A program made the position numbers and the translations under genes. A DNA stretch of 36,870 nt from a virus, in the IMG/VR virus record IMGVR_UViG_3300006072_000012, positions 1-36,870 of that record. One strand, 5' to 3'. Below are positions 2,259-36,375 of this stretch, piece after piece. The notes under the pieces are model-generated. The model did no database searches and had not been told where the DNA came from. It was given only the letters and a program-made list of their open reading frames with translations. The first letter of the stretch is position 1; the number at the start of each line of letters is the position of its first letter.

Positions 2259-3698
2259 ATGGCAATCTTTGATATTTTTAAGCGGAAAAATACGAAAGAA
2301 AGTAACACTTTATTCGGGCAAACACAGCTTGGTAATCAGATTGTCAGGCAGACTCCGAAGACTCAACAAGGTTCAAACTTTCAATTATTGTATGTCACGA
2401 CTTCGAGCACAACTAATGCTGGAAGAATCGTTGATATGTCGGTTTTGTCGAGAAATTCGACAATTATGTCTTGCGTTGGTGTGATTGCTAGGGCTTTGGC
2501 GCAATGTTCTGTGTCAATTATGTATAAGCTGGACGATGGTACGTTTGAGGATGTATTGCAGTCTAGTAATGCTGGCGTTAGGGATAAAGCAAAAGCCAAA
2601 CAAATTTTGAATTTACTTCAAGAGCCGAATAATTTCCAAAATCAATATGAGTTTTGGTATCAATGGGCGATGTGGCACGAGCTGGCTGGTGAGACTTTTA
2701 CTTTACTGTTTAGAAAAGATCAGCAGGATTCAATGCAAACTCCAATCGAGATGTATAACCTCGATGCAACTTTGATTACTGTTCAAATGACGGAATTACG
2801 TTATCCGATGTATCGGTTATCAACTCCTAGTTATGGATTTAATAAAGACGAGCCGTTGCTGGCTCATCAAGTTATTCACGTAACTGAGGCACCGTGGCAA
2901 GGTTCGGCTGGTTTTAACAAGGGTATTTTGGCAACCGAGCTGGTGGGGCTGGATACTGATATCGACCTGTACGCAAATTACATTATGCAAAATGGCGCAA
3001 AGCCAAGCGGTATGTTTATGACGGATCAGGTAATTCCGGATGCAAAATTTAAGGAAATTGCGGCAAGGCTAAAAGAAGCGTGGTCATCTATGACTGGCTC
3101 ACGTCCTACGGATCAATCAAAGCCGGGACAATCTATTATGCTCGATCAGGGTATGAAGTACGAGGCTTTAAAACCTTTGACCTTGCAGGATGCTGATTGC
3201 GCTAAATTAAAAGATCAAACTACAAAGCGTATTTGTGCATTATTCGGAGTACCGGCTCAAATGTTGGGGCTGGAGACTGGTAAATTTAATAATACGCAGA
3301 CTTTATTGGATGAGTTCTACAAGACCAAAATGTACCCGATGGTCATTAATATTGAGCAAAAATTCAAGCAAAGTTTATTACGTGGATACCCTAACCTTTA
3401 TATTCGGTTCGATACAAAAGACTTTTTGAAGGGTGCGGCTCTCGATCAAATGAATTTTGTCACGGCTGGCGTATCTGCTGGTATTTTTACGCCTAACGAA
3501 GCAAGGGAATATTTGAATATGCAAAAGGTCGAAGGCGGTGATGATTTACCTGCTATTGATCCAATGGGGATTTCAAAAACCAATGTTCCTATTGGTGGTA
3601 AAGGTGCAAAAATCGATCCTATTGCTGGATCAAGTCCGCAAGATACGGGAGGCGGTGGAGGTAATCAAACTCGAAAGATGAATATCGGAAAAACGTAA
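2259..3698 (+). CDS. Portal protein, HK97 family
   Basis: The 479-aa product should form the dodecameric ring at the unique capsid vertex through which DNA passes. It carries the HK97-type portal core: an N-terminal segment VLSRNSTIMSCVGVIARALA, a central stretch with QYEFWYQWAMWHELAGE, and the conserved C-terminal region KRICALFGVPAQMLGLETG followed by a NTQTLLDEFYKTKMYP segment. The Gly-rich tail (near DTGGGGGNQ) is probably disordered. The start at 2259 has GGGGG about 5-6 bases upstream. Order terminase, portal, protease, capsid is the standard one. Confidence 0.94.
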   Translation: MAIFDIFKRKNTKESNTLFGQTQLGNQIVRQTPKTQQGSNFQLLYVTTSSTTNAGRIVDMSVLSRNSTIMSCVGVIARALAQCSVSIMYKLDDGTFEDVLQSSNAGVRDKAKAKQILNLLQEPNNFQNQYEFWYQWAMWHELAGETFTLLFRKDQQDSMQTPIEMYNLDATLITVQMTELRYPMYRLSTPSYGFNKDEPLLAHQVIHVTEAPWQGSAGFNKGILATELVGLDTDIDLYANYIMQNGAKPSGMFMTDQVIPDAKFKEIAARLKEAWSSMTGSRPTDQSKPGQSIMLDQGMKYEALKPLTLQDADCAKLKDQTTKRICALFGVPAQMLGLETGKFNNTQTLLDEFYKTKMYPMVINIEQKFKQSLLRGYPNLYIRFDTKDFLKGAALDQMNFVTAGVSAGIFTPNEAREYLNMQKVEGGDDLPAIDPMGISKTNVPIGGKGAKIDPIAGSSPQDTGGGGGNQTRKMNIGKT

Positions 3699-3699
3699 T

Positions 3700-3909
3700 A
3701 TGTCAGTAAAACACAAAATAATACGGGTTCTCACTTCACAAATCAAAACGAGTGGTGTTACACTACCGCAAATTGATAGAAAAAACCCTACAATACAAGA
3801 CATTAATTTATCTATACATAATGGGGTGATCAATGAAACAAATGAATCTGATCTGCGAGGCGAAGTTAAGCCTAAACGAAAAGGCAGACCCAAAAAACAG
3901 CGAACCTAG
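3700..3909 (+). CDS. Small basic ORF with AT-hook-like tail, uncertain
   Basis: A 69-codon frame starts one base after the portal stop (TAATATG) and overlaps the start of the protease gene by 77 bases in another frame. Its C-terminus KPKRKGRPKKQR contains the GRPKK core of an AT-hook, a minor-groove DNA-binding motif. It has no clear Shine-Dalgarno and would rely on re-initiation after the portal stop. I do not recognise a family. It may be a real small DNA-binding protein or a chance frame in the leader of the protease gene. Confidence 0.4.
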   Translation: MSVKHKIIRVLTSQIKTSGVTLPQIDRKNPTIQDINLSIHNGVINETNESDLRGEVKPKRKGRPKKQRT

Positions 3910-4660
3910 TGGCAAGATTTCTGCACGGGTTACGACTTGGGGGCCAAGAGAAGGCGAAGACGGGCGTAAGTTTAACTATCAGCCCGAGGGTTTCATGGAT
4001 TGGGCTAATGAGTTTTCTAGTGCTGGCAAACCATTGCCAATGTTCTTAAATCATAACGACATGGGGATGCCAGTCGGTGAATGGAACGAATTCAATTTTG
4101 ATAAAACAGGTATGACGGCAGAAGGTCGTTTATATCTAAGTACGGTCGGTGGATCAGATTTATATAATGTATTAAAAGAATCTCCTAACCTTTTCGGTGG
4201 CGTGTCCGTTGGTGCTTATGCTGACGAAGCGCAATATGTAGATTCAACTGGTGAAGCATTCCCAATGGGTCCAGATGGTTGGCCAGATATTGATTCAGAT
4301 GATGAAGCATATTTCCAAATCACTAAAGGTGGATTGCGTGAGGTGTCAGTCGTGATGTACCCAAATAATCCTGCGGCTGAAGTTATGCAATTGGAATATT
4401 TTGATTCTGAGGGTAAGTTAAACCCTCGATTGATTGAAAAAGCCTTGCGTGAGGCGGGCTTTTCAAGGAAGGATGCGACCACCGCATCTTTGGTTTTCCG
4501 CAAAGTTTTGGAATCGCGTGATGCGCCAAAAAACAAAGTGGAAGAAACGCCAAATCAAGGTGAGCTTGATGCGGTGGTAAACGAGGCCGATGCGATTCTG
4601 ATTGCTTTAGAGCAAAGGGAATTGCTGAAAGCATTATCAAAGCGTCTTATTAAGGATTAA
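3833..4660 (+). CDS. Prohead maturation protease, HK97 family
   Basis: This 275-aa serine protease should cleave the capsid delta domain during prohead maturation. The fold signature is clear: KISARVTTWGPREG near residues 28-41, the catalytic His74 in FLNHNDMGMPVGEW, and the nucleophile Ser115 in FGGVSVGAYAD. The C-terminal 100 residues are charged and helical and may act as a scaffold segment. The start at 3833 is preceded by GGGGTGAT; a second in-frame ATG at 3842 is possible. It is followed 3 bases later by the first capsid gene, whose N-terminal coiled coil is the expected substrate. Confidence 0.92.
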   Translation: MKQMNLICEAKLSLNEKADPKNSEPSGKISARVTTWGPREGEDGRKFNYQPEGFMDWANEFSSAGKPLPMFLNHNDMGMPVGEWNEFNFDKTGMTAEGRLYLSTVGGSDLYNVLKESPNLFGGVSVGAYADEAQYVDSTGEAFPMGPDGWPDIDSDDEAYFQITKGGLREVSVVMYPNNPAAEVMQLEYFDSEGKLNPRLIEKALREAGFSRKDATTASLVFRKVLESRDAPKNKVEETPNQGELDAVVNEADAILIALEQRELLKALSKRLIKD

Positions 4661-4663
4661 ATC

Positions 4664-6004
4664 ATGTCAGTAGAAAAAATTCTGGAAAAAGTTGATGCGA
4701 TTGAAGTTGCAAACGCAACCAAAATCGAAGAAGCAAAGACCGAGACTTTAGCTAAAGTTGAGGAAGTTAAGAACGAAACCGTTGAGAAAATTGCGGCTCT
4801 AGAAGCTAAGATTTCACAAATCAGCGTTCCTTCATTCATCAAGCCCGAGAAAACCGTGCGTGGTGATGTTAACAAAATGGTTAGAGAGCAACTCTCTAAA
4901 TTTGTTAAAAAAGGAAAGTCTCTTGAGAAAGAGATTAAGATGTTCGAGAGCGATGAGCAATACCAAGCATATTTGAACGAGAGTTCAGCTTTGACTGGTG
5001 GCGGTGCTGGCGTTGGTGGTCGTACTGCTTACGATCCCGTGTTTCACAAGTTGCGTCTGTTAAACCCAATGCGTGGTTTGTCTAGAAACGTAACTACGGA
5101 AGGCGCTACATATCAGTTCCGTGCCAAAACTGGTAACGCTGGCGCTACGTGGGGCTATGCCGTTCAAAATAACGGTTCACCCACAACTGAAAACACGAAC
5201 ATTTGGCAATTGACTTTGCAAGATTTGAACACTCAATTCCCAATCCGTACTGCGGCTTTGGATGATATTGATGGTTTAGAGGCAAACGTAGTTGACGATA
5301 TGTTGATGGAGTTTTCACAAGTTGAAGGCCAGTCAATGATTCAAAATAACGACCAGACAGATACACCTAATACTTACGGTGGTACAAATGGTTTGCGTGG
5401 TTTGAATCAGTATGCTGGAGCTAATGCAAGTTATACCGGTGGAACAATCACGACTGCGGCTTTCGGCTCGTCAGGTACTGGTTCTACATCTGGCTTGGCT
5501 TCACTTGCTACGTACGACCAGTTGACAACTAACGGTGCTGGTGTTGGTGCGGCTAACGTGACTTATCAAGATATCGTTGAATTCATTCACTTGTTGCCAC
5601 AAGAATACTGGACTCCAACTGCAAAGTTCATGATTAATCCATTGTTCTTGGCTCAAATTCGTGGTTTGAAAGATGCTAACGGAACACCAATTTTCGAGCG
5701 TATGGCTCCAATGGTGTACGAGGGTATCGTTGGTCAGATCATGGGCTTTGACGTTGTGGTTAACAAGTACATGGATAGTCCTGATAGTTCGACTTCGACT
5801 CCGGGTACTACATCTTTGTTCCCAATGTACTTCGGTGACTGGCAACGTGGTCACACAATCGTGGATCGTTTGAATATGGTTCTACGTCGCTACGATCAAA
5901 CATTGCCAGGTTACATCACTTTCTATGGTGAGAAACGTTTGGCTACATCTGTAATGGATCCATTCTCCATTATTCGCTATCGCTCGACGGCTACAGCGAC
6001 CTAA
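4664..6004 (+). CDS. Major capsid protein 1, HK97 fold, with delta domain
   Basis: The 446-aa product forms the icosahedral shell. Residues 1 to about 100 are Lys/Glu/Ala-rich and predicted coiled coil, the usual scaffold-like delta domain removed by the protease. The mature part starts near NESSALTGGGAGVGGR (105-120), includes WGYAVQNNGSPTTENTNIWQ and TYGGTNGLRGLNQY, and ends with PGYITFYGEKRLATSV. An AAGGA Shine-Dalgarno sits 7 bases ahead of the ATG. An intrinsic terminator follows the stop, consistent with a strongly expressed gene. A clear paralog is encoded next (6068-7090). Confidence 0.93.
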   Translation: MSVEKILEKVDAIEVANATKIEEAKTETLAKVEEVKNETVEKIAALEAKISQISVPSFIKPEKTVRGDVNKMVREQLSKFVKKGKSLEKEIKMFESDEQYQAYLNESSALTGGGAGVGGRTAYDPVFHKLRLLNPMRGLSRNVTTEGATYQFRAKTGNAGATWGYAVQNNGSPTTENTNIWQLTLQDLNTQFPIRTAALDDIDGLEANVVDDMLMEFSQVEGQSMIQNNDQTDTPNTYGGTNGLRGLNQYAGANASYTGGTITTAAFGSSGTGSTSGLASLATYDQLTTNGAGVGAANVTYQDIVEFIHLLPQEYWTPTAKFMINPLFLAQIRGLKDANGTPIFERMAPMVYEGIVGQIMGFDVVVNKYMDSPDSSTSTPGTTSLFPMYFGDWQRGHTIVDRLNMVLRRYDQTLPGYITFYGEKRLATSVMDPFSIIRYRSTATAT

Positions 6005-6012
6005 ATGAAACT

Positions 6013-6044
6013 GGGGGGGAAGAAATTCCCTCCCGTTTTCTTTA
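6013..6044 (+). terminator. Intrinsic terminator between the two capsid genes
   Basis: Seven G followed by AA pair with TTCCCTCCC (6026-6034), giving a 9-bp stem with one G-U pair and a GAAA tetraloop (6022-6025), followed by GTTTTCTTT. This is a strong rho-independent terminator. It would end many transcripts after capsid gene 1 and reduce expression of capsid gene 2 and the connector genes. Confidence 0.85.
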
Positions 6045-6067
6045 ACTTTTGACTTGGAAAAAAATTC

Positions 6068-7090
6068 ATGAACATCATCCTTGAAGCAATCAGAAAGTCT
6101 CTTAAAAAAGACGAGAAAGTAACAGTTAATATTAACGAATCATCAGCATTAACTGGCTCAGGGTCGGGTGTTGGTGGACGTGTAATTTACGATGATGCTT
6201 TTGCGGCTTTACGTTATGCGAATCCTATTCGTATGGCTGGAGCGAGAACAATTTCTACGATTGGATCGGATCAGGCTTTCGTTGTGAAAACTGGTAACGT
6301 GACCAATCCAACTAACCCTTGGGGATACTCTTTTACTGCTAACTTAGGCACTCCTAATACTGCAACTTCATTTTGGCAGTTGGCGGTGCAAGCGGTGGTT
6401 GCTCAAGTACCTGTGCGTACGGCTATTTTGAGTGATGTAAATAATTTAAATGAAACGCTTTTATCGGACGTCGCTTTAGAGTTTGCGCAACAAGAAGCGT
6501 TGTCTATGATGTTTAATAACGATCAATCTGGATCAAGCACAACTACGTATGGTGGTGTTTATGGATTGCGTGGATTGAATAGTTATACAAGTGGATCAAG
6601 TGCGGCTTTTGGCTCTAATGGTCCAGCTTTGACTAATGGAATTCATACGGTATTAACAAATTCATCTGCTACTGGTGGAACAATTGTTTATAACGACGTG
6701 GTTGGTTTGTATCAGGCTTTACCTCCTCAATATTACAATTTACCTTCTACTGCTTGGATGATGCACCCAAATACGATTGCTTATTTGCGTGAATTAAAAG
6801 ATTCAAACGGATTGCCTTTGTTTTTAGACATTGGTGAAAAAGAAGGTTATTCTGTGGGTAACATTTTTGGTCATGCGGTTATTCCTAATCCCTACATGGA
6901 TCAAATCGGTTCTGGAAAATTGCCAATTTACTTGGCGGCTTGGGAAAGATTCGTAACTATTGCGGATAATGAATTAATGTCATTCCAATGGTTTGAGCAA
7001 TCGACTCCGGGCTTTATGACATTGTTCGCTGAAAAGCGAGTATGTTCTACGATTCGTGACGTGTTCGGTGGTGTGCGTTTATCGACTTAA
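6068..7090 (+). CDS. Second HK97-fold capsid protein, lacks delta domain
   Basis: This 340-aa protein is a paralog of the upstream capsid protein. Both share NESSALTG-x-G-x-GVGGR, a YD..F..LR..NP.R segment, KTGN, WGY, WQL..Q....Q.P.RTA.L.D, EF.Q.E..SM..NNDQ, TYGG..GLRGLN.Y and a C-terminal PG..T...EKR. The shared core begins at residue 23 here versus 105 in protein 1, so the scaffold-like N-terminal domain is missing. A terminator lies upstream and the nearest GGA is about 9 bases from the ATG, so expression is probably lower than for protein 1. A role as vertex or minor capsid protein, as T4 gp24 is to gp23, is an inference. An alternative is a decaying duplicate, but the frame is intact. 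Confidence 0.85.
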   Translation: MNIILEAIRKSLKKDEKVTVNINESSALTGSGSGVGGRVIYDDAFAALRYANPIRMAGARTISTIGSDQAFVVKTGNVTNPTNPWGYSFTANLGTPNTATSFWQLAVQAVVAQVPVRTAILSDVNNLNETLLSDVALEFAQQEALSMMFNNDQSGSSTTTYGGVYGLRGLNSYTSGSSAAFGSNGPALTNGIHTVLTNSSATGGTIVYNDVVGLYQALPPQYYNLPSTAWMMHPNTIAYLRELKDSNGLPLFLDIGEKEGYSVGNIFGHAVIPNPYMDQIGSGKLPIYLAAWERFVTIADNELMSFQWFEQSTPGFMTLFAEKRVCSTIRDVFGGVRLST

Positions 7091-7099
7091 AGGTTAAAA

Positions 7100-7768
7100 A
7101 TGGCATTAGATAGCTACACGAATGGTCCGTATTTAGGTACGACCCGTAACCCGTTCTCGTATGAGAAAGTGGAGCAGGTCGATCGTGATGTATCGACTGC
7201 ATGGCTAACGCTGGACGAAATAACGAATCAACTGAATTTATTCGGTGATGAATCGCAAGATAGTTACTTGCTAGGGCTGGAGTTAGCGACTAGGATGACG
7301 ATCGAGGATTTTCTCGGTATGTCTATTTTCCCGATTCAGTATCGTGTTTACTATGGCGCATGGAACGGAATGACGGGTACGCAGGTTAATTTAGATTTGC
7401 CTGAAGTTAGTCAAGGGTCACAGTACGGGGCTGGTGTTACGATTGACGAAGTAGCGTACTGGTCTAGTAGTACACCTCCGGTTTATACGGTGCTCGACCC
7501 GTCAATGTATTTTTACGATATGACTGGTAATAAGGTCATTTGTAATGGCATTCCGGATGAAGTAAATCAGGCAATGACTAATCCTATTGTCGTTTTATAT
7601 ACTACTGGGGCTAGTCCTTATGCGGCTTATCCTGTGATTAAGCAAGCGGCTTTAATGATTCTTACTCATTTATACAATAATCGTTCAAACACGTTTAATG
7701 GGACTTTGAAAGAAATTCCATACGGGGCGCAGACTTTGCTTAGACCGTACAAGCCTTTGGTGATGTAA
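7100..7768 (+). CDS. Head-tail connector, gp6/phiE125 gp8-like
   Basis: The 222-aa product sits where the adaptor that docks under the portal is encoded in HK97-like phages. It has the characteristic pattern: an N-terminal helical part (STAWLTLDEITNQLNLFG, then LLGLELATRMTIEDFLGMSI), a beta-rich middle, and the C-terminal helix VIKQAALMILTHLYNNRS followed by a LLRPYKPLVM tail. That C-terminal motif is typical of gp6-like connectors. Its stop overlaps the next gene by one base (TAATG), so the two are coupled. Assignment is by sequence pattern and position. Confidence 0.82.
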   Translation: MALDSYTNGPYLGTTRNPFSYEKVEQVDRDVSTAWLTLDEITNQLNLFGDESQDSYLLGLELATRMTIEDFLGMSIFPIQYRVYYGAWNGMTGTQVNLDLPEVSQGSQYGAGVTIDEVAYWSSSTPPVYTVLDPSMYFYDMTGNKVICNGIPDEVNQAMTNPIVVLYTTGASPYAAYPVIKQAALMILTHLYNNRSNTFNGTLKEIPYGAQTLLRPYKPLVM

Positions 7769-22677: not shown

Positions 22678-23331
22678 ATGACAATACAAAATATAACATG
22701 GGAGCAAATGCTCTTAATAAATGAGCTTAATTTTGCTAAACAACACAATCCAGAATACTATCGCTGGAAACTGACTAACAATTACGAAAGAGCAGTTTTC
22801 TTAAAAGGCGATCCTGTATATCCAAGAGAAGCAACACGGTATTTGTGGGCTAACAACAATCTCAAGGGTCGTAAAATACTAGAGATAGGGTGCTCTAGTG
22901 GATTCGGTGCTCAGTTTTTGCCTAATGATATTGACTATTTAGGTATTGATTACGATCCTATTATCGTTACGGTGGCTCAAGAGCAAAACTGGGGAGAAAA
23001 TTACAAATTCTCTTTGGGTGATATTAATGAAATAGAGCTAGCGCAGTTCGACACAATTATCGCTTTTGAAGTGATCGAGCATTTGGATAATGGGCTTGAA
23101 GTCGTAGAAAAGCTGAAAAAACATTGCAAAAGGTTATTGATTACAGTTCCATGGAACGAACCCAAAGGATTTTGGGGGGAGCATCACAAATTGCATGGAC
23201 TTAATGAGTCTTACTTCCCTGATTTTCAAATAGATTACATTGATGAGCATGGAAAAATACACGATAAACCTCAGCCTATTTTTGAACATAATCGTTTTAA
23301 CCTCATGATTTTGAGGTACGACCGTGGATAA
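22678..23331 (+). CDS. Class I SAM-dependent methyltransferase
   Basis: The 217-aa protein has a Rossmann-fold methyltransferase core: motif I ILEIGCSSGFGAQFL near residues 63-77, the acidic ribose-binding end of strand 2 in YLGIDYDP (near 86-93), and motif IV-like DTIIAFEVIEHL (near 123-134) followed by LLITVPWNE. It is of the Methyltransf_11/23 type, seen with sugar or small-molecule substrates rather than DNA. It overlaps the glycosyltransferase gene by 8 bases, so a shared role in modifying a glycan, perhaps on the fibers, is likely. Target unknown. Confidence 0.82.
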   Translation: MTIQNITWEQMLLINELNFAKQHNPEYYRWKLTNNYERAVFLKGDPVYPREATRYLWANNNLKGRKILEIGCSSGFGAQFLPNDIDYLGIDYDPIIVTVAQEQNWGENYKFSLGDINEIELAQFDTIIAFEVIEHLDNGLEVVEKLKKHCKRLLITVPWNEPKGFWGEHHKLHGLNESYFPDFQIDYIDEHGKIHDKPQPIFEHNRFNLMILRYDRG

Positions 23332-34308: not shown

Positions 34309-34746
34309 ATGATGCCGATAAGTAAAAAAGCGGACGGATGGTATTGGGGTTCAAAAGGTCCGTTTGATACCAAACAAAAAGCGGTCCAAGTAGGGCAAGC
34401 GGCTCATGCGGCTGGTGCTGAATCTATAGAAATTAAAGAAAAAAAAGCAGGTAAATTAACTTTTGCTTTGGATTATCACAATACTTATTCTGCTGATCCT
34501 AAGTTTTGGAACGTGTTCATCGAGCTAGTTAGACTTAGAAAAGACAAACTTTACTGCGTAACGCATCACACAGGTGAGAAGCAAAATCAGGATTTGTTAG
34601 ATTCTATCGGGAAAGTGATCGGGAAGGAAAACGTCATTTTTACGATGGGCAAGGCAAAAATGGATTTCGTAAAGAAATTAGGCATTAACATTGATATCTG
34701 GATCGACAACAACCCAATACATATTATCGAAGACCCTACAACATGA
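34309..34746 (+). CDS. HAD-like protein with degenerate active site
   Basis: The 145-aa protein has an N-terminal module of about 40 residues (KADGWYWGSKGPFDTKQKAV) and a HAD-like domain: LDYHNT (54-59) as motif I, CVTHHTGE as motif II-like, KAKMDFVKK as motif III and WIDNNP as motif IV. The usual DxD of motif I is D-Y-H, lacking the second Asp, so ordinary phosphatase activity is doubtful. It overlaps the ParB-like gene by 4 bases (ATGA) and belongs to a modification-like cassette. ATG at 34312 is an alternative start. Confidence 0.6.
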   Translation: MMPISKKADGWYWGSKGPFDTKQKAVQVGQAAHAAGAESIEIKEKKAGKLTFALDYHNTYSADPKFWNVFIELVRLRKDKLYCVTHHTGEKQNQDLLDSIGKVIGKENVIFTMGKAKMDFVKKLGINIDIWIDNNPIHIIEDPTT

Positions 34747-35537
34747 AATTAAAACTACAATACAAAAAAACTTCTGAGTTAATGTTTTTTGCTAATAACA
34801 GCAGACTTCACGACAAAGAGCAAATAAAACAAATAGCGGATAGTATTAAAGAATTCGGGTTTAACAATCCGGTGTTGCTGGATGGTGTTAACGGTATTAT
34901 TGCTGGTCATGGGCGGGTGATGGCGGCTCAGTTTTTGGGACTTGCAGAGGTTCCAACCATTGAGTTGTCTCACCTGAACGATGAGCAAAAGTCAGCTTAC
35001 GTTATTGCTGACAATAAAATCGCTATAAATGCTAAGTGGGATAACGAAATTCTGGCTTTGGAATTGAAAAAGTTAGAGGAAAGCGGTTTTAATGTTTCGT
35101 TGACTGGTTTCGGACAGGATGAAATTACAGATTTATTGGATTTGATGGACGATTCAAAATCCAAGGAAATGCTGGAATATACAAAAAAGATCGACACGCC
35201 TATATACGAACCAAAGGGCGAAAAGCCAGATTTGTCGATGCTGGTCGATAGACGTAAATCGGATGAATTGATAGAAAAAATCAATAATTCTAAAGTTACG
35301 GATGAAGAAAAAGAGTTTTTAAGAATAGCGGCTCAGCGGCATTTAGTATTTGATTATCAAGAAATAGCTGAATATTACGCTCATGCTGGTAAAGGAATGC
35401 AGGAATTAATGGAAAATTCTGCACTCGTAATCATTGACTTCCAAAAAGCAATTGAGCAGGGTTATGTCGTAATGTCGCAAAAGATTGACGATATTTACGC
35501 TGATTCATACATGGATATTGATAGCGATGAAGAATAA
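34743..35537 (+). CDS. ParB-like nuclease-fold protein
   Basis: The 264-aa protein begins with a ParB/sulfiredoxin-like domain: LMFFANNSRLHDKEQIKQIA, NNPVLLDGVNGIIAGHGRVM with the GHGR motif at 55-58, and LGLAEVPTIEL. Similar domains occur fused to adenine methyltransferases; here the remaining 130 residues (TPIYEPKGEKPDLSMLVDRR and LRIAAQRHLVFDYQEIAEYY) form a different conserved-looking C-terminal domain without a methyltransferase motif. It overlaps the HAD-like gene by 4 and the TAGT gene by 11 bases. It may guide DNA base modification, an inference from family context. Confidence 0.72.
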   Translation: MKLKLQYKKTSELMFFANNSRLHDKEQIKQIADSIKEFGFNNPVLLDGVNGIIAGHGRVMAAQFLGLAEVPTIELSHLNDEQKSAYVIADNKIAINAKWDNEILALELKKLEESGFNVSLTGFGQDEITDLLDLMDDSKSKEMLEYTKKIDTPIYEPKGEKPDLSMLVDRRKSDELIEKINNSKVTDEEKEFLRIAAQRHLVFDYQEIAEYYAHAGKGMQELMENSALVIIDFQKAIEQGYVVMSQKIDDIYADSYMDIDSDEE

Positions 35538-36375
35538 GGACTTTTGCGCCTTTATTCTGAGCAATGCAAGAGCGAATAAGGTTTACACGTACGAAACGCT
35601 GAGAAAATGCGGCTATACAGGTCCAATTGTGATCGTTATCGACAGTCTAGACAAAAAAGCTAATGAATACAAAAAGCTATACAGGGATCAGGTTTACGTA
35701 TTTGATAAGGTGAAAGCTGGTCAGATAACGGATAGCGGTGATAACTTCGGTACTTTGCGTGGCGTTGTTTATGCTCGTAATATGAATAATGAAATCGCTA
35801 AGGAATTGGGCTATAAATATTACATTCAGCTCGATGACGACTATACGGACTTTAGGCATAAACGTAACAACTATGGAACGTATTCGGATAAAAGAATCAA
35901 AGACTTAGACGGGGTTTGGGATGCGATGCTTGATTATTTCAAGGATACGCCAATAACTTCGTTAGCTATGGCTCAGGGCGGTGACTTTATCGGTGGAAAA
36001 GATAGCGGTACTATCGAAAAGCCAAAGCGTAAGGTGATGAATAGCTTCATTTTTAGCGTTGATAGACCGTACGAATTCTTTGGAAGAATAAACGAAGACG
36101 TAAATATGTACGTTTACCTCGGATCACAAGGAAAACTGTTCGTAACTGTGACAATCGTATCGCTTCAGCAAAAGCAAACGCAAAAGAATAGCGGAGGATT
36201 GACGGAGCTTTATTTGGACTCTGGTACGTACGTTAAGTCGTTTTACTCAATTCTTTATATGCCGTCGTCTGTAAAGATAGCAGTAATGCACAGTAAAAAC
36301 CCTCGTATACATCATTCAGTACGATGGAAAAACACAGTGCCTCAGATAGTTGAAGAACGATTCAAGAAATATTAA
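35527..36375 (+). CDS. TET-associated-type glycosyltransferase (TAGT)
   Basis: From ATG 35527 the product is 282 aa; the earlier frame to 35485 lies in the ParB gene. It has the start FCAFILSNARANKVYTYETL, then GYTGPIVIVIDSLDKK, VVYARNMNNEIAKELGYKYY and QLDDDYTDFRHK with the DDD metal motif at 103-105. This is the pattern I know from TET/JBP-associated glycosyltransferases (Iyer, Aravind and colleagues), which are proposed to glycosylate hydroxymethylated bases in phage DNA. No TET/JBP dioxygenase or hydroxymethylase is visible here. Confidence 0.78.
   Translation: MKNKDFCAFILSNARANKVYTYETLRKCGYTGPIVIVIDSLDKKANEYKKLYRDQVYVFDKVKAGQITDSGDNFGTLRGVVYARNMNNEIAKELGYKYYIQLDDDYTDFRHKRNNYGTYSDKRIKDLDGVWDAMLDYFKDTPITSLAMAQGGDFIGGKDSGTIEKPKRKVMNSFIFSVDRPYEFFGRINEDVNMYVYLGSQGKLFVTVTIVSLQQKQTQKNSGGLTELYLDSGTYVKSFYSILYMPSSVKIAVMHSKNPRIHHSVRWKNTVPQIVEERFKKY

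Follow-up and report, generated by a model that had tools for sequence, protein, structure and literature searches.

The virus record IMGVR_UViG_3300006072_000012 (36,870 bases; this whole stretch is referred to below as the window) carries two adjacent genes for HK97-type capsid proteins, designated A and B, which, as judged from their sequences, arose when a major capsid gene of the PF05065 family was duplicated in tandem long ago. We consider it probable (at approximately 0.6) that B serves specifically as a minor subunit of the capsid, with the penton (vertex) protein as its likeliest identity, and that A makes the hexamers. Such a division of labour would resemble that of gp23 and gp24 in phage T4, and probably evolved independently in a small siphophage lineage. 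From the evidence below we infer that virions contain B, in how many copies, and that it sits in the pentons.

The genes of the locus are arranged in the order terminases, portal, S78 protease, A, B and head-tail adaptor, those from the portal gene onward being encoded on the plus strand. The small and large terminase genes are located 5' of the portal gene (positions 2259–3698; PF04860, E-value 2.3e-59), which is followed by a prohead protease of the S78 family (3833–4660; PF04586, 6.6e-7), the presumed trimmer of A. Gene A (4664–6004) encodes the main major capsid protein of 446 amino acids and gene B (6068–7090) the second, minor one of 340 amino acids; the head-tail adaptor gene (7100–7768; phrog_442, 1.6e-13) directly follows B. 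In one relative (L136), approximately 560 nt of additional sequence was found between the protease gene and A (4442–5001 of that contig), unlike in other relatives.

The preliminary description had proposed two tandem HK97-type capsid reading frames, the second starting about 80 residues later and lacking the delta domain, and both parts of this proposal were borne out. In pairwise comparison A and B shared 39% identity over 360 columns (E-value 5e-59), and both scored well above the curated cut-offs of PF05065 (Phage_capsid; A, 5e-33 and 115 bits; B, 2e-20 and 74 bits; cut-off 24.2) and of the NCBIfam model TIGR01554 (major_cap_HK97; A, 1.8e-33 and 116 bits; B, 79 bits; cut-off 27.5). PF05065 was the only Pfam match of either protein at E-values up to 0.1, the capsid families of T4 giving none. 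The start of B aligns opposite residue ~85 of A, strong similarity runs from the motif NESSALTG onward (residue 105 in A, 23 in B), and residues 4–80 of A fill alignment columns with no equivalent in B. The first 80–100 residues are the usual location of the HK97 delta region, which usually recruits subunits into the prohead. The corresponding delta-like stretch of A (residues 1 to ~100; 4664–4963) is rich in long helices (residues 3–50 and 65–82 in the predicted model), and with the S78 protease gene upstream its processing is presumed; B is devoid of this region.

As a sequence search against the PDB gave little (a weak match of A to the RcGTA capsid, 7e-8, and no credible match for B), comparison of folds was used. 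B is predicted to adopt the HK97 fold, in line with the preliminary description: the best solved neighbours of its model (pLDDT 76, pTM 0.76) were RcGTA capsid chains (Foldseek, 9e-18; VIA-align to 6tb9, Z 23.2, rmsd 3.7 over 252 residues), followed by the capsid proteins of cf-PICI, Mycofy1, HK97 and D3, and VIA-align to 1ohg gave a Z of 16.4. RcGTA capsid chains were also the best Foldseek match of A (1.4e-10), whose model is weak (pLDDT 57), with a confidence too low for residue-level superposition onto B.

Relatives were collected by scanning viral contigs with A, B and divergent members of both, which yielded several hundred, together with five contigs filed in metagenome-assembled genomes. 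A locus was counted if at least 1300 nt were present after A, and B was sought within 2500 nt. B followed A in all of the 277 loci with room for it (217 distinct junction sequences; some contigs were retrieved twice), with a median gap of 64 nt between the matches. Neither A without B nor B without A occurred among loci with sufficient room, and no lineage representing a single-gene ancestral state, with A but without B, was seen in the relatives scanned. The comparison with related genomes suggested in the preliminary description thus found the pair to be kept throughout, and the recurrence in relatives of the sequence features that it had listed excludes chance. In three loci (L012, L052 and L055) the reading frame of A or B was interrupted, one of these loci containing N bases; these look like assembly errors and not decay.

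Among 50,697 deposited phages the pair was present in only one, Methylophilaceae phage P19250A (KX815270; P19250A_0005 and P19250A_0006), which belongs to the same family. It has the same portal-protease-A-B-adaptor order and a hairpin between A and B, its A and B are 62 and 49% identical to those of the window phage, and its B is annotated merely as 'hypothetical protein'. A passage in PMC8163748 describes Venkman as resembling P19250A.

A tree was built from 45 A and 45 B proteins, with H4907 and Bcep176 as distant outgroups. All 45 B proteins fell into a single clade (support 100/100), whose stem measured 1.63 changes per column, so the duplication is older than all sampled lineages; the outgroups are too remote (branches of 5.6 and 3.4), and the position of the root within A is uncertain. 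Both genes are under purifying selection, slightly weaker for B, the median dN/dS over 679 pairs being ~0.18 in A and ~0.22 in B, with dS close to saturation.

The expression signals of the two genes are unequal. In the window, the ribosome site of A (AAGGA, 4652–4656) pairs with the anti-SD tail at -5.9 kcal/mol and that of B (TTGGA, 6054–6058) at -3.3 kcal/mol, consistent with the weak site noted earlier for the second gene. Over 45 diverse pairs the corresponding energies were -5.2 and -4.1 kcal/mol, the site of A being the stronger in 35 (p 6e-5), and codon bias was higher in A in 36 of the 45 (Nc 38.6 vs 41.8, p 9e-7); these pairs are akin to one another, and the p values overstate their independence. 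Of the 22 window genes scored, A had the lowest Nc (38.5) and B the third lowest (42.9), ranks that would suit two structural proteins, the first abundant and the second less so.

Between the genes lies a hairpin (6012–6035). Its stem has 10 pairs, including two G-T, its loop is GAAA, and TTTTCTTT directly follows on the 3' side; the T-rich tail (6036–6043) gives the site the appearance of an intrinsic terminator. The stem-loop and its tail had been recognised before, with the stem put at nine pairs instead of 10. Stems of at least six pairs, varying in sequence, were found in the A-B gaps of 45 out of 45 diverse relatives (mean z -3.2 against dinucleotide shuffles; p < 0.05 in 91%). At least five T among the 10 bases at the stem end were counted in 31 of the 45, the T counts of L126 and L141 being unreliable, as the scripted stem there differs from the G-rich one. 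The reading of the element as a terminator between the genes therefore suits some relatives better than others, as some keep the stem without a T-run. The hairpin may be a terminator in most relatives and a protector of the 3' end of the A message in others. A putative terminator also follows the single capsid gene of HK97, so the hairpin is by itself ordinary and may serve A instead of setting the A:B ratio; the notable point is the location of B beyond it, where B transcription would presumably be reduced. No Rfam family matched within positions 4600–7200. The A-B gap is also a repeated insertion site of endonuclease-like reading frames, of HNH type in L071, L078, L097 and L099 (PF01844 at 3.7e-5 in L071) and GIY-YIG-like in L125, L265 and L300, the latter recognised by eye and without a Pfam match.

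In HK97-type capsids, the A-domain surrounds the capsomer axis, and the N-arm, E-loop and P-domain contact neighbouring capsomers. With A-domain boundaries drawn from the B model and general knowledge of HK97, the residue of columns conserved in B (at least 85%) recurred in A for 77% of those outside the A-domain and 47% of those inside it (p 0.002); in the other direction, conserved columns of A were retained in B at 0.61 outside and 0.46 inside (p 0.09). Identity between A and B of the same genome, relative to that within each paralog, was 0.48 in the A-domain, 0.38 at the C-terminus and 0.59–0.78 elsewhere. Conserved residues of the N-arm, E-loop, spine-helix and P-domain are common to A and B. 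Divergence of this kind would be expected of a B that retains the contacts of the lattice while packing into another type of ring.

Taken as a penton protein, B would act as follows. A, with its delta-like region and protease target, would build the hexameric lattice and drive prohead assembly and maturation, while B, translated from beyond the hairpin and from a weaker start site, would be made in a smaller amount. Being nearly mature in form, B would enter the prohead without a delta region and occupy a small set of lattice positions, the likeliest being the 11 pentameric vertices; in a T=7 head this would amount to ~55 copies of B alongside ~360 of A. Several points weigh against it: the single major capsid protein (MCP) of HK97 and its relatives makes pentons as well, and a penton protein is not required at such a genome size; the A-domain test is significant in one direction only; and, as regards dosage, a terminator is annotated after the MCP gene in single-MCP HK97 too, and the T-tract is missing in some relatives of the window phage.

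The closest parallel is T4, where gp23 and gp24 are likewise tandem HK97-fold paralogs in the same gene order, and the N-terminal propeptide is much shorter in the minor one; the A-domain is involved in both systems, through bypass mutations in T4 and through divergence in A and B. T4 gp24, the penton protein and paralog of gp23, loses 10 N-terminal residues, compared with 65 for gp23, and some gp24-bypass mutations map to the gp23 A-domain, at a contact within the capsomer (PMC9958956). On its attachment, gp24 is believed to set off the T4 prohead protease (PMC9958956), and a role of a vertex protein in maturation would thus have a parallel in T4. The two cases differ in that T4 is a myophage of ~170 kb with a prolate head and a pair ~20% identical, whereas the window phage has ~37 kb and a pair 39% identical. 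As A and B both belong to PF05065, are 39% identical and reside in a genome of ~37 kb, their duplication would be separate from that of T4. The preliminary description had likened the genes to gp23/gp24 as a stoichiometric pair. Two HK97-fold paralogs with unequal expression signals are supported, and the comparison is apt in gene order, in the shorter N-terminus of the minor paralog and in the divergence of the A-domain; the portal-proximal placement it offered as another option found no specific support.

Much less probable, though the best of the other explanations, is a mixture of A and B within capsomers, or an irregular distribution of B in the lattice, as in the two-component shells of Family 2B encapsulins, which likewise contain two HK97-fold proteins per shell. 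The two subunits of the Streptomyces lydicus shell both align with the B model (Z 16.4 and 16.1), and variable composition with irregular tiling is described for a shell of this type in PMC12407261. Those shells, however, are cellular nanocompartments without portal, protease or genome packaging, unlike the A/B phages. Furthermore, the A-domain, which would be needed for packing of A against B in shared capsomers, is the site of the greatest difference between the paralogs, and the expression signals of the two are unequal.

It is slightly less likely again that B forms a special ring, for instance around the portal vertex, or sets the size or shape of the head through elongated or oblate caps. 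That B is flanked by the capsid gene on one side and the head-tail adaptor gene on the other would suit this, as would the nearest structures of A and B, RcGTA capsid chains solved with C5 symmetry. Against it, B has no domain pointing to the portal, and the proximity to the RcGTA fold reflects sequence kinship and not head shape; RcGTA has one capsid protein.

That B stays outside the virion shell, with a role in assembly only or an unrelated function on the HK97 fold, appears improbable: the missing delta region, the usual recruiter of HK97 subunits, would agree with it, but the residues of the N-arm, E-loop, spine-helix and P-domain are kept, codon bias is high and B was never lost. A recent or decaying duplicate without a role of its own, as the tandem position and weaker expression signals might suggest, is contradicted by the single old split on a long stem, purifying selection and retention in 277 of 277 loci, and we give it hardly any weight.

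The single-MCP siphophages HK97, Bcep176 and H4907 share the fold and gene order of the A/B locus, but have one capsid gene and none further before the connector genes. In the open literature searched, with the original P19250A paper outside its coverage, we found no earlier description of two capsid paralogs in small phages. We see an approximately even chance that a large lineage of siphophages of ~37 kb, most of them environmental, has two-protein heads with an obligate, delta-less penton subunit and a hexon/penton split independent of T4; lacking a scaffolding domain, B would then rely on A alone for its entry into the shell. In most HK97-type phages one protein makes both pentamers and hexamers, and it has long been asked how the choice is made. 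With its two genes, its cultured member and its delta-less minor subunit, a small phage family of this kind would represent a natural experiment, revealing the requirements of a penton-only subunit and whether incorporation depends on the delta region. What is annotated as 'hypothetical protein' next to the capsid gene of A/B phages would then be a structural protein.

In one sub-clade (L131, positions 5934–7262; L132; L137) the B frame is extended N-terminally by ~100 residues (beginning MPKPTDAMKAEARRGLEW). The extension matches phrog_2859 (1.5e-24), a family of unknown function, and sits where A has its delta region. The domain was found in 90 phage records and forms the N-terminus of long 'major capsid protein' genes in Synechococcus S-CBS1 and Roseobacter CRP-406. 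Inside the extended frames a start with the SD-like AAGGAACTAAGGAAAATG is retained, which would allow for two products.

Elsewhere in the window, a TET-associated glycosyltransferase gene (35485–36375; PF20691, 1.8e-29; phrog_842 glucosyl-HMC-glucosyltransferase, 2e-70) adjoins a ParB-like gene (34743–35537; phrog_620), a neighbourhood that hints at modified, glycosylated DNA bases in this phage. A gene with a class I methyltransferase domain (22678–23331) is located between the tail-fibre and lysis regions.
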